This document shows, piece after piece, positions 44,042 to 49,104 of a stretch of 54,211 nt of DNA (positions within the stretch are counted from its first letter, which is position 1; every line of letters starts with the position of its first letter). The DNA lies in the NCBI GenBank assembly GCA_016290615.1, contig JAEEUS010000011.1, positions 1 through 54,211 of the forward strand. The letters run 5' to 3'. The position numbers and the translations under genes were made by a program. This DNA comes from Lachnospiraceae bacterium (GTDB taxonomy: Bacteria; Bacillota; Clostridia; Lachnospirales; Lachnospiraceae). Below the pieces are notes generated by a model that worked only from the letters and a program-made list of their open reading frames with translations, was not told where the DNA came from and ran no database searches.

Positions 44042-44074
44042 AAAAGAAAACACACATGCCCTTCAGCATGTGTG
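44042..44074 (-). terminator. Terminator overlapping the pflA stop codon
   Basis: CACACATGC pairs perfectly with GCATGTGTG; the pflA TGA stop lies in the 6-nt loop. On the minus strand it is followed by TTTTCTTTT. Ends the pfl/pflA transcript. Confidence 0.85.
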
Positions 44075-44848
44075 ATGTTCTTTGTAGTCTGTCTCGATAT
44101 TCTCTTCGGCTCTTCTTCTCTTGATACCCTGGAGTATGACCTTCTTTTTCTCGATCGCCGTCTGCTTATCCATAGGCGGAACATCCTTCAGCTTGTAATC
44201 AATCCCGAGATTTTCATACTTTGGCTTAGCAAGATCATGATAAGGCAGTACATCTAATGCCTTAAGATTCTTAAGACCGCCGATAAAGTATCCCAGCTTG
44301 TCAAGATAGTAATCATCATCCGTGATGCCCGGAACAACAACGTGTCTTATCCATACCGGAACGTTCTTTTCATCAAGATATTCAGCAAAAGCCAGTATGC
44401 CGTCGTTTGGCTGATCCGTAAGTTCCTTGTGCTTGATCGGATCGATATGCTTTATATCGAGCATTACAAGATCAGTCATTGTCATGAGCCTGTCAAGCTT
44501 GTCATTATATGCTTTATTGCCCGGCTTGTAGGTTATACCAGATGTATCTATGCAGGTATGTATGTTGTCCTTTTTTGCCAGTTCAAACAGTTCGAGTAAA
44601 AAGTCTATCTGAAGAAGAGGCTCTCCGCCGGTAACAGTGATACCGCCGTCTGTGTAGAAACCTTCATTGCGATGGTACTGCTCTATTATATAGCTTGCTT
44701 CCATCTCCTCTCCGGCACCTATTACCCACGTGTCGGGATTGTGACAGTAAGCGCATCTCATCGGACATCCCTGCAAGAATACAACATATCTCACACCTGG
44801 TCCATCAACGGTTCCGAAGCTCTGTAAAGAATGAATTCTTCCTTTCAT
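44063..44848 (-). CDS. pflA: Pyruvate formate-lyase activating enzyme
   Basis: Radical-SAM enzyme that abstracts hydrogen from the PFL glycine to create the glycyl radical. 261 residues from the ATG at 44848 (GGAGG 6 bp upstream); an in-frame TTG at 44860 is less likely. Cluster-binding cysteines are 28, 32 and 35 in GCPMRCAYC, with GGITVTGGEP later. Normal length for PflA. In this window its only target is the split PFL upstream, whose radical glycine is on a separate 80-residue protein. A hairpin terminator lies between that gene and pflA, so pflA expression may be reduced relative to PFL. Confidence 0.93.
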   Translation of the reverse strand: MKGRIHSLQSFGTVDGPGVRYVVFLQGCPMRCAYCHNPDTWVIGAGEEMEASYIIEQYHRNEGFYTDGGITVTGGEPLLQIDFLLELFELAKKDNIHTCIDTSGITYKPGNKAYNDKLDRLMTMTDLVMLDIKHIDPIKHKELTDQPNDGILAFAEYLDEKNVPVWIRHVVVPGITDDDYYLDKLGYFIGGLKNLKALDVLPYHDLAKPKYENLGIDYKLKDVPPMDKQTAIEKKKVILQGIKRRRAEENIETDYKEHHTC

Positions 44849-44859
44849 GTAACCCTCCA

Positions 44860-44888
44860 AAAAAGGGACCGGCTAACGCCGATCCCTT
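44860..44888 (-). terminator. Hairpin terminator between radical-domain gene and pflA
   Basis: Minus-strand AAGGGA/TCCCTT with an inner CGGC/GCCG stem (one mismatch between) and a GTTA loop, then six T. It ends just before the pflA ribosome-binding site. It would let most transcripts stop after the PFL subunits. Confidence 0.8.
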
Positions 44889-44901: not shown

Positions 44902-45144
44902 TTAGATTGACTGATGGAATGTACGAGAGATAACGTCTGCCTGCTGTTCAGGTGTAAGCTTGATGAAGTTTACAGCGTATCCTGATACACGGATAGTAAG
45001 CTGAGGATAGTTCTCAGGATGTGCCTGAGCATCTAAAAGTGTCTCTCTGTTCAATACATTAACGTTAAGGTGATGTCCACCCTTTGTTGCATAGCCATCT
45101 AATAATGATACAAGGTTGTTAACCTGTGCTGCTGATGCTGCCAT
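44902..45144 (-). CDS. Autonomous glycyl-radical domain of pyruvate formate-lyase
   Basis: 80-residue protein equal to the C-terminal domain of PFL. It opens with [20 protein letters not shown] and carries the radical loop RVSGYAVNF with radical glycine Gly55, exactly 25 residues before the C-terminus as in one-piece PFL. It resembles YfiD/GrcA, a spare radical domain in E. coli, but here there is no one-piece PFL gene in the window, so it is likely the essential second subunit. Strong own SD (AAGGAGG, 8 bp before the ATG). Same operon as the catalytic fragment; the C-terminus TRF-like end (ISRTFHQSI) matches PFL. Confidence 0.92.
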
Positions 45145-45168: not shown

Positions 45169-45369
45169 TTAATCGTCAATACCTTCATGTAATGTCGGAA
45201 CGCTGCAAGCCATGGGGTTCTTTGAGCAATCCACACACCCGAGGGTCTGTACTTCCTTGGCTGCTGCATCCATACTCTCGTCCACATCAACATTGACATG
45301 TCCTACGCCGTTTGTCATACCGGCATCAAGCTGTGCTACCAAATCATCTATCATACTCTTCTGATCCAT
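45169..45369 (-). CDS. 66-residue protein resembling the PFL radical domain, with Cys motif
   Basis: Lies between the PFL catalytic gene and the radical-domain gene, with its own SD (AAAGGAG, 8 bp before the ATG). Residues 7-29 align without gaps to residues 8-30 of the 80-residue protein, with 10 of 23 identical: shared LV, LD, T-G, GH, NV and V positions around GVGHVNVDV. After that the sequence departs completely. There is no R-V-S-G-Y radical loop; instead the C-terminus has CVDCSKNPMAC (Cys45, 48, 55) and an acidic end. I do not recognise a named family. It could be a decoy, assembly factor or redox regulator that docks to the PFL core. Confidence 0.8.
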   Translation of the reverse strand: MDQKSMIDDLVAQLDAGMTNGVGHVNVDVDESMDAAAKEVQTLGCVDCSKNPMACSVPTLHEGIDD

Positions 45370-45410
45370 ACTTAGCGCTCCTTTCTACATGAATAAGTTA
45401 AGTTACTTAA

Positions 45411-47450
45411 TTATTTGTTAAGATCGATCTCGATATCACCTGCAAATACCTGATCCTCTTTACCAAGAGCACCGGGGATGATGGTGAACGTGTTAGAGAT
45501 ACCATCCTGTGAATGGTTGAACGGAAGCTTAGATACTGATGACAGTGAAGCTACTGCACCGTGAGTATCACGTCCGTGCATCGGGTTAGCACCGGGAGCG
45601 AAAGGCTGACCTTTCTTACGTCCGTCAGGTGTGTTACCTGTTGCCTTACCATATGTAACGTTAGAAGTAATTGTAAGAACTGACATTGTCGGGAATCCAT
45701 CTCTGTATGTATGATGTCTTCTGATCATTGTCATGAACTTCTTAACGAGGTTCTTAGCGATCTCGTCAGCTCTGTCATCATCGTTACCGTATTTAGGGAA
45801 GTCGCCTGTCGTCTCGAAGTCAACGATTACGCCGTCCTCATCTCTTATGCACTTAACCTGTGCATACTTGATAGCTGAAAGCGAGTCAGTAACAACTGAA
45901 AGACCAGCCATACCTGTTGCGAAGTAACGAAGTACGTCTCTGTCATGAAGAGCCATCTGTGCTCTCTCGTAGCAGTACTTGTCATGCATGTAGTGGATGA
46001 TGTTAAGAGTGTTAACATATACATCTGCGAGCCACTCCATCATATCCTCGTACTTAGCCATTACATCATCGTAGTCAAGGATGTCGCCTTCAACAGGACG
46101 GTACTTAGGACCAACCTGCTTCTTTGTAACTTCATCAACACCGCCGTTTAATGCGTACAGCAAGCACTTAGCAAGGTTAGCACGAGCTCCGAAGAACTGC
46201 ATCTGCTTACCGATTACCATTGAAGATACGCAGCAAGCGATACCGTAGTCATCACCGTGTGTTACTCTCATAAGGTCATCGTTCTCATACTGAACAGAAG
46301 ATGTTGTGATAGAGATCTTTGCGCAGTACTTCTTGAATGCGATGGGAAGTCTTGTAGACCAGAGAACTGTAAGGTTGGGCTCGGGAGCTGCACCAAGGTT
46401 CTCAAGTGTATGTAAGTAACGGAATGAGCTCTTTGTTACCATAGGACGTCCGTCAACACCAACACCACCGATAGACTCTGTAACCCAAACCGGATCACCT
46501 GCGAATATCTGGTTGTACTCAGGTGTACGAGCGAACTTAACGCAACGAAGCTTCATTACGAAGTGATCGATGAACTCCTGGATCTGCTCTTCTGTAAATG
46601 TTCCGTTCTTTAAGTCTCTCTCTGCGTAGCAGTCGATGAATGTAGAAGTACGTCCGAGTGACATTGCTGCACCGTTCTGCTCCTTAACTGCTGAGAGGTA
46701 ACCGAAGTATGTAGCCTGGATAGCTTCCTGTACGTTTGTAGCAGGCTTAGAGATATCACATCCGTAAGATGCAGCCATCTCCTTCATAAGCTTAAGAGCT
46801 ACGATCTGCTCTGAGATCTCTTCACGAAGACGGATAACATCATCTGTCATAACACGTCCTGTAGAAGCCTTCTGCTCTTCCTTATCCTCGATAAGTCTGT
46901 CGATACCGTAAAGAGCGATTCTTCTGTAGTCACCGATGATACGTCCTCTTCCGTATGCATCCGGAAGACCTGTGATTACGTGTGATGAACGGCAAGCTCT
47001 CATTTCAGCGTTGTAAGCATCGAAACAACCTGCGTTGTGTGTCTTACGATGAACTGAGAAGAACTCACTGATCTCAGGGTCAACTGTGTATCCGTTATCT
47101 GCACATGCCTTCTCTGCCATTCTGATACCGCCGTAAGGCTGCATTGAACGCTTGAAGGGCTTATCTGTCTGGAAACCTACGATCTTTTCCTTTGACTTGT
47201 CAAGGTAGCCAGGTCCGTGAGAAGTGATTGTTGAGATAACCTTTGTGTCCATATCAAGAACGCCGCCGGCTTCTCTTTCCTTCTTCTGAAGATCAAGTAC
47301 CTGTGCCCACAAATCCTTTGTGTTCTGTGTAGGGTCTGCAAGGAAGCTCTCATCTCCGTCATAGGGAGTGTAGTTCTTCTGGATGAAATCACGTACGTTG
47401 ATTTCTTCTTCCCACTTGCCGCCTACAAAATCTGTCCATTCTGGTCTCAT
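45411..47450 (-). CDS. pflB: Pyruvate formate-lyase catalytic subunit (split, lacks glycyl-radical domain)
   Basis: Carries the pyruvate + CoA to acetyl-CoA + formate chemistry. 679 residues match the PFL barrel; the catalytic pair Cys406-Cys407 is in [28 protein letters not shown] and [18 protein letters not shown] are typical. It ends in a stop about where one-piece PFL enters its C-terminal radical domain, right after [10 protein letters not shown]. With the 80-residue protein the total is 759, the length of E. coli PFL. SD AGGAGG 7 bp before the ATG and a strong promoter. The codon choice looks like that of a highly expressed gene. A frameshift is unlikely since separate start sites follow. 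Confidence 0.93.
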
Positions 47451-47623: not shown

Positions 47624-47683
47624 TGCCTTTAAAATGAAAATGTGATAACTTGTTCTATACAAGAAAAAACGGAGGTACATATC

Positions 47684-47875
47684 ATGACAGGTATTACAAG
47701 AGATATGACTATAGGTGATATATTAAGAACCAATCCCCAGGTTGCATCAGTGCTCATGGAAGCAGGGATGCACTGCTTGGGCTGTCCCGCTTCACAGGGT
47801 GAGAGCCTTGAGGAGGCAGCTATGGTACACGGACTTGATATAGACGCTCTTATGTCTGCTATCGAAGCTTTCTGA
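47684..47875 (+). CDS. DUF1858 / redox-disulfide domain protein
   Basis: 63-residue single-domain protein of the DUF1858 family, often found next to hybrid-cluster proteins. It has the fingerprint [20 protein letters not shown], then CLGC (Cys31, Cys34), which can form a redox disulfide. Strong SD CGGAGG 8 bp before the ATG; the open frame upstream (to 47642) is not needed. It is the divergent neighbour of the split PFL. It could sense redox state or supply thiol chemistry to the pfl system, but the family's function is not settled. Terminator directly after. Confidence 0.85.
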
Positions 47876-48933: not shown

Positions 48934-49104
48934 ATGGCATATTGTATCGGTGATTCATGCATCAGCTGCGGTTCTTGTGAAGGTCAGTGCCCTGTTGGCG
49001 CTATCAGCATGGGAGACGGACAGTTCGTTATCGATGAGACACTCTGCATCGACTGCGGAAGTTGTGCAGGTCAGTGCCCCGTTGGCGCTATCTCTGAGGG
49101 CTAA
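48934..49104 (+). CDS. 2[4Fe-4S] ferredoxin, clostridial type
   Basis: 56-residue electron carrier with two CxxCxxCxxxC clusters: Cys9, 12, 15, 19 and Cys38, 41, 44, 48, plus a ninth Cys at position 4. Length and pattern match the small clostridial ferredoxins, which serve hydrogenase, pyruvate:ferredoxin oxidoreductase and Rnf reactions. The two halves are near-repeats, including a 25-bp DNA block with one difference. SD AAGGAGG, own promoter and terminator. No partner gene is adjacent. Confidence 0.93.
   Translation: MAYCIGDSCISCGSCEGQCPVGAISMGDGQFVIDETLCIDCGSCAGQCPVGAISEG

Follow-up and report, generated by a model that had tools for sequence, protein, structure and literature searches.

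A conserved small cysteine-bearing protein associated with split PFL in Lachnospiraceae and their relatives

Pyruvate formate-lyase (PFL) is one of the main enzymes by which gut and rumen anaerobes ferment, and oxygen destroys it irreversibly. In E. coli, according to the available text of one study (PMC8683613), oxygen-cleaved PFL keeps residues 696-733, including strand beta-10, and the spare part YfiD duplicates that same strand. Despite the duplicated strand, once residues 696-733 are removed YfiD binding is no longer measurable and activation is 32-fold lower, as stated in the same text. Cysteine-bearing small subunits are also known from other glycyl radical enzymes. In benzylsuccinate synthase (BSS), a small Fe-S subunit (BSS-beta) controls the formation of the thiyl radical, and quenching of stray radicals has been proposed for the small subunit, as far as the available part of PMC12590467 describes it.

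Here we analyse a window of 54,211 nucleotides (contig JAEEUS010000011.1 of the Lachnospiraceae bacterium assembly GCA_016290615.1), in which PFL is encoded as separate pieces, as it is in many gut and rumen bacteria, together with an undescribed extra piece of 66 residues, hereafter mid66. With the radical domain split off, the vulnerable part of PFL becomes replaceable. No paper on split PFL, on its Cys tail or on GrcA3 was found in the open-access PMC literature.

The split PFL operon and its 66-residue gene

The minus-strand operon runs from the PFL core through mid66 and GrcA3 to the PFL activase (Table 1). The core covers positions 2-665 of the 744 positions of TIGR01255. When aligned with E. 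coli PFL (1h16), it reaches residue 681 and GrcA3 starts at residue 682, so the split falls just before the helix that enters the radical domain. GrcA3 matches both YfiD (6owr) and E. coli PFL 682-758, and its score stands at the NCBIfam cut-off of 158, with 158.5 bits in the protein search and 157.3, just below, in genome searches. The closest solved relatives of the core are two formate acetyltransferase chains, PDB 38la and 38lb (687 and 739 residues; 1103.5 and 1135.2 bits), neither of which was among the matches of a GrcA3 search of the PDB at E ≤ 1e-5. Near its end, 38lb appears to carry a CxC tail (DCAC at about 722-725, seen in an additional alignment that is not significant), which suggests that the structure of a core without a radical domain but with a Cys tail has already been deposited; our search of the open-access PMC literature found no paper on either entry.

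Table 1. Features of the split PFL operon in the window
Feature	Position	Strand	Evidence
Split PFL core, 679 aa, with active-site Cys pair (ACCVSS)	45411..47450	-	TIGR01255, 1089 bits
Ribosome-binding site of mid66, AAAGGAG	45378..45384	-	Sequence
mid66, 66 aa, strand-10-like N-terminal part and dicysteine tail	45169..45369	-	ORF, conserved family, purifying selection
mid66 residues 7-29, like the helix and beta-10 strand that open the PFL/GrcA radical domain	45283..45351	-	
mid66 residues 45-66: C45, C48, C55, VPTL motif, acidic end	45172..45237	-	Fused counterparts on PFL cores elsewhere
GrcA3, stand-alone glycyl-radical domain, 80 aa, RVSGYAV	44902..45144	-	NF038360, 158.5 bits
PFL activating enzyme (radical SAM), same operon	44063..44860	-	TIGR02493, 282.8 bits

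The initial annotation had placed mid66 between two PFL pieces, with a ribosome-binding site of its own and with a cysteine motif and an acidic tail in place of the radical loop. All of this was reproduced: the 679-residue core lies on one side and the 80-residue radical domain on the other, the frame (an ATG start, 66 codons and a stop) is preceded by AAAGGAG, and C45-x2-C48-x6-C55 with its acidic end stands where the glycyl radical loop RVSGY and the radical glycine, both absent from mid66, would be expected. The ungapped match that it had reported for residues 7-29 is exact, with 10 of 23 residues identical to GrcA3 8-30; this is the best 23-residue window, and its score was reached by none of 1000 shuffles. 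A profile built from 24 members of the mid66 family (A1) detected GrcA3 and the radical domains of intact PFLs, with per-genome values of about 5e-6 to 1e-2 over approximately profile positions 1-33, and 17 of the 24 members matched the GrcA3 model weakly (best 7.1e-5). By sequence and profile matches, the helix and beta-10 segment of GrcA is present in mid66. Like GrcA/YfiD (NF038360, TIGR04365; 6owr), mid66 is a small stand-alone protein with the start of the radical domain, and it lies in the same operon. However, it has neither the RVSGYA glycyl loop nor the C-terminal helix, carries a Cys tail, and scores 12.9 bits with the GrcA3 model, for which the cut-off is 158. mid66 is not a GrcA.

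The absence of a described family, also claimed initially, was borne out in Pfam, NCBIfam and PHROGs, where no family scored above its cut-off, and a PDB search with the mid66 profile gave no convincing relative, its two matches being at chance level (E 0.2 and 0.34). The gene is under purifying selection, with pN/pS of 0.11-0.25 in the five informative pairs out of six. Annotation thus has a gap at such loci: a 66-residue gene without a named family, next to a core that looks like a truncated PFL. Conservation, the missing family description and the tie to split PFL set out below support mid66 as a real, conserved and previously undescribed component of split PFL, in keeping with its earlier nomination as a candidate new component. 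The roles suggested along with that nomination, such as filling the docking site, inhibition, shielding from oxygen or metal binding, are candidates at most.

The conserved functional end of mid66 is its cysteine tail. At least two cysteines are found in all 76 distinct mid66 sequences; the number is three in 64, two in 10 and four in 2, and the typical spacing is C-x2-C-x6-C. Several members have Ser instead of Cys at position 45, and C48 is missing in that of G009. In G031 and G045, mid66 stops directly after CxxC, and the second half of the tail is absent.

Co-occurrence of mid66 with split PFL

Among the matches listed for the order sample (392 genomes), a stand-alone GrcA3, taken as an open frame of up to 141 aa, was found in at least 80 genomes, weak stand-alone copies having possibly been missed. 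Full mid66 was found in 60 genomes, and all 60 have a stand-alone GrcA3 (Fisher p 8.7e-54, kinship ignored). The sample of relatives comprised 98 genomes, own genome included. Here mid66 matched at E ≤ 0.1 in 31 genomes, clearly so in 29 (E ≤ 2.8e-6), and 28 of these 29 belong to the 32 for which a stand-alone GrcA3 was counted. For this count a short frame of at least 150 bits was required, which left out the short radical-domain frames of 46-74 bits in G057, G076 and G034 (its second one). The remaining one of the 29, G025, is a genome 67% complete in which PFL was not found. mid66 was not found in two genomes of the same genus that have an intact PFL (G012, G016). In the class sample, 10 of 391 genomes have mid66 at E ≤ 1e-8, and in the three outside the order (G492, G545, G586) it lies beside core and GrcA3.

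A scan of named genomes gave 424 stretches that encode a relative, and the best 80 of them were analysed. Of these 80, 65 are titled Lachnospiraceae bacterium, and the remainder are mostly Acetatifactor, Eisenbergiella, Roseburia, Blautia or bins, with one bin titled Gastranaerophilales. Core, mid66 and GrcA3 occur together in 66 of the best 80 of 424 stretches, according to the script's test. We conclude that mid66 is almost certainly tied to split PFL.

The three genes are not always adjacent. In G021, core and GrcA3 share one contig and mid66 lies on another. In G383, G403 and G426, mid66 lies elsewhere and GrcA3 follows the core by some 800 bases; in G383, where this interval was read, the activase lies between the two. 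The unlinked mid66 of G383 and G403 (L144, L148) is located upstream of a membrane protein, which we take to be YitT-like. As a separate observation, seven genomes (G279, G364, G256, G340, G237, G271 and G291; second-frame loci L087-L091, L095 and L096) have a second GrcA3 frame elsewhere, in addition to the copy beside mid66; it may be a reserve for the spare part.

Dicysteine tails fused to PFL cores

Among the matches listed, the two samples together contain 104 split genomes, of which 82 have mid66, 20 have a core whose C-terminus continues into a fused dicysteine tail, 1 has neither (G245) and 1 is unreadable (G326, where a contig end leaves no core beside GrcA3). The initial annotation had counted absence from related split-PFL loci as evidence against mid66. 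Such absence does occur, mid66 being missing in 22 of the 104, but 20 of these 22 carry the dicysteine tail on the core itself. The fused tails account for 18 of the 20 listed split genomes without mid66 in the order sample (G047, G051, G185, G201, G209, G239, G283, G292, G314, G360, G371, G398, G404, G408, G420, G422, G423 and G435) and for G034 and G037 in the sample of relatives. For example, the core of G034 ends in ...ESGCDCGPDMSCGIPNLMEGIDDNEAGN, that of G037 in ...NDLCSVGDSACNIPNLLEGLDTENED and that of G283 in ...EECGNQACNIPNIMESIDNE, and the cores of G051 and G047 have the tail ...DCACCEP.... The core ends that lie beside mid66 contain no cysteine (90 loci, 51 distinct). Counted in cis or in trans, a dicysteine tail is present in 102 of the 103 readable split genomes among the matches listed. 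This rule was first noticed on 5 genomes, three of which (G047, G051 and G283) are among the 20; in 17 new split genomes it held in 15 of the 16 readable ones. In the genomes read, the split design is thus nearly always paired with a thiol arm for which the three family libraries searched give no description. The existence of fused tails suggests that the tail may act on the core.

The fused tails have no strand-10 copy, and the strand is best seen as an anchor that a separate protein would need. When the tails were compared with the mid66-tail profile, seven of them had scores equalled by 0-2 of their 2000 shuffled versions; by this comparison they are recognisable as the mid66 tail. Homology to the mid66 tail was not supported for five tails of the CxCC type, with 594-1440 of 2000 shuffles as good, nor for the core end of G245 (401 of 2000) and the linker of G424 (1129 of 2000).

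A maximum-likelihood tree of 65 chosen cores, from which the intact rows L074 and L075 were left out because their ends were not located, needs 14 state changes where the least possible number is 5. Six changes are required for just the AC-type fused tails, and well supported branches force at least 3 of these. As reconstructed from these cores, the tree shows that the arm in trans and the tail in cis apparently interchanged repeatedly, as expected if the tail does its job on the core.

Two cores deserve separate mention. G245 (L137, G245:C2) has the only readable split core with neither Cys tail nor mid66; it has one Cys right after ALG and sits on a long branch of the tree. Among intact PFLs, the junction between core and radical domain is Cys-free in 24 of a hand-picked set of 25, the exception being G424 (L151, G424:C26), which has an insert with 3 Cys at this junction and ends in CCM. 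This intact PFL is placed among the split ones on the core tree and is possibly a re-fused split PFL that has retained its thiols.

Possible roles of the dicysteine tail

In the reading that we prefer, and to which we give an even chance, mid66 is a third, detachable arm of split PFL that would serve as a redox guard at the mouth of the active site. The core lacks the radical-domain helix and all that follows it, and the radical domain is provided by GrcA3, a protein of its own. The helix/beta-10 copy of mid66 probably lies in the core groove left vacant by the radical domain; judging from the sequence resemblance, docking at this site is somewhat probable. The tail would then deliver two or three cysteines to the core and act while no charged GrcA3 is docked. 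Its thiols might reversibly cap the active-site cysteine pair, or they might quench stray thiyl or glycyl radicals by hydrogen-atom donation, in time to prevent chain cleavage by oxygen; such a thiol guard or radical discharge has, in our estimation, a chance approaching but not exceeding even. GrcA3 would displace the arm upon activation or reactivation, and we infer that mid66 and GrcA3 may alternate on the core.

A docked arm with a thiol cap or discharge is favoured by two precedents, E. coli PFL 696-733 and the small subunit of BSS. The split core resembles the truncated E. coli PFL described above, and by analogy mid66 may supply the missing strand in trans, together with a thiol tail. 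Both the E. coli segment and mid66 contain the beta-10 strand that the spare part duplicates, and in the available text of PMC8683613 the segment is needed for spare-part binding; the segment, however, is covalently part of the enzyme and has no Cys tail, whereas mid66 is a separate protein with such a tail. More tentatively, and with the chances rather against it, the thiol arm could be the built-in safety device of a modular PFL with three exchangeable parts (core, radical domain and arm) in much of the Lachnospiraceae and their relatives, in which arm and radical domain would swap places and the thiols would cap or discharge the radical or thiyl sites. If this were true, the enzyme would be put to sleep and re-armed rather than cut by oxygen, a form of redox control that, as far as we searched, is undescribed for glycyl radical enzymes. 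mid66 and the fused tails make the protection or re-arming of a glycyl radical enzyme in obligate anaerobes testable, and mid66 may help to explain why binding of the spare part to E. coli PFL depends on the remnant 696-733.

Several observations count against the arm. A single groove would have to serve both mid66 and GrcA3 in competition, the split core of G245 has neither tail nor mid66, the mid66 of G031 and G045 is without the second half of the tail, and the five CxCC-type tails have no detectable homology to the mid66 tail. Since the fused tails lack the strand-10 copy, docking through this copy is not universal. Finally, mid66-like paralogues with another tail occur in unrelated places. 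They were found at scattered sites in 18 of the 98 relatives, including the genome of the window (G000), and most have the tail YHHGRCDVGSPWAKG; the count leaves out G045, whose listed match is its mid66. Inspection of eight paralogue loci revealed no constant neighbour. The copy in the genome of the window (L064, G000:C44:32471-32656, plus strand) has the different tail YHHGRCDVGSPWAKG...NCD. A candidate owner of this tail, presumably NrdD in view of a weak Gly_radical match, was rejected, as the candidate ORF in the same genome ends without that tail.

AlphaFold models were obtained for a natural read-through of core, mid66 and GrcA3 (L230) and for its core-mid66 part, with mean pLDDT values of 59.4 and 61.9, respectively, and with large stretches of the core below 50. 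The two-part model has a short strand at the GHVN motif (residues 711-713), at best a hint. A half-of-sites arrangement, with GrcA3 on one core of the dimer and mid66 on the other, was given low probability, as a 2025 in vivo study opposes half-site reactivity in the text available (PMC12338860).

Among the alternatives to the thiol arm, a loading or recognition handle fares best, although we consider it rather unlikely. mid66 or the fused tail would replace E. coli PFL 696-733, GrcA3 and the activase would recognise the empty core by it, and the cysteines would be structural or incidental. The loss of YfiD binding and activation upon removal of the E. coli segment points in this direction, as do the copy of that segment in mid66 and the end of the split core ahead of it. 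However, the fused tails do without the strand copy, and the feature common to all forms is the Cys pair.

We regard as improbable a metal or iron-sulphur site, with Zn, Fe or a cluster coordinated by the cysteines in the manner of the BSS and 4-hydroxyphenylacetate decarboxylase (HPAD) small subunits. BSS beta/gamma and the HPAD small subunit are, like mid66, small and cysteine-bearing; they act on the catalytic subunit of their glycyl radical enzyme, as mid66 may do. The presence of exactly three Cys in 64 of the 76 mid66 sequences, typically with the regular spacing given above, is consistent with a site of this kind. These subunits carry Fe-S clusters, however, many of them with a HiPIP-like fold, whereas mid66 has about 66 residues with mostly two or three Cys, and its partner is split PFL. 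BSS beta/gamma-type subunits have four cysteines per [4Fe-4S] cluster; mid66 has two or three in 74 of 76 sequences and four in 2, and with too few Cys it is not a BSS-type Fe-S subunit. Moreover, 10 of the 76 have only two Cys, and the fused forms vary in number and spacing (CxCC, C-x4-C, C-x6-C and CxC-x5-C), which makes one fixed metal site less likely. The constant element is a pair of neighbouring thiols, which suggests that reversible thiol chemistry fits better than a fixed metal site.

It is quite improbable that mid66 is a plain inhibitor that fills the radical-domain groove and lowers PFL activity, its thiols having no redox part. The strand-10 copy and the position in the operon agree with such a role, but an inhibitor of this kind would not be exchanged for a core-fused tail that lacks the groove-filling part. 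We consider very improbable a targeting tag or degradation signal, with the AC-x-VPTL-x-x-G-x-DD end read by a protease or a scaffold: the motif is C-terminal in the separate form and in several fused forms, but the CxCC tails and the mid66 of G031 and G045 keep Cys without it, and a tag would hardly call for a gene of its own that includes the strand-10 copy. That mid66 is a chance or hitchhiking ORF unconnected with PFL, as the few mid66 copies away from PFL (L021, L023) might suggest, is scarcely credible, being contradicted by purifying selection, strict co-occurrence and the fused tails.

Two further genes lie close to the operon on the plus strand. A DUF1858 protein with a CLGC motif (85.6 bits; window positions 47642-47875) is encoded divergently to the PFL core, and a relative of it is present in 40 of the 58 named split-PFL loci whose sequence ahead of the core exceeds 900 bases; it may be part of the same redox physiology. 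A small 2[4Fe-4S] ferredoxin is encoded nearby, at positions 48934-49104.
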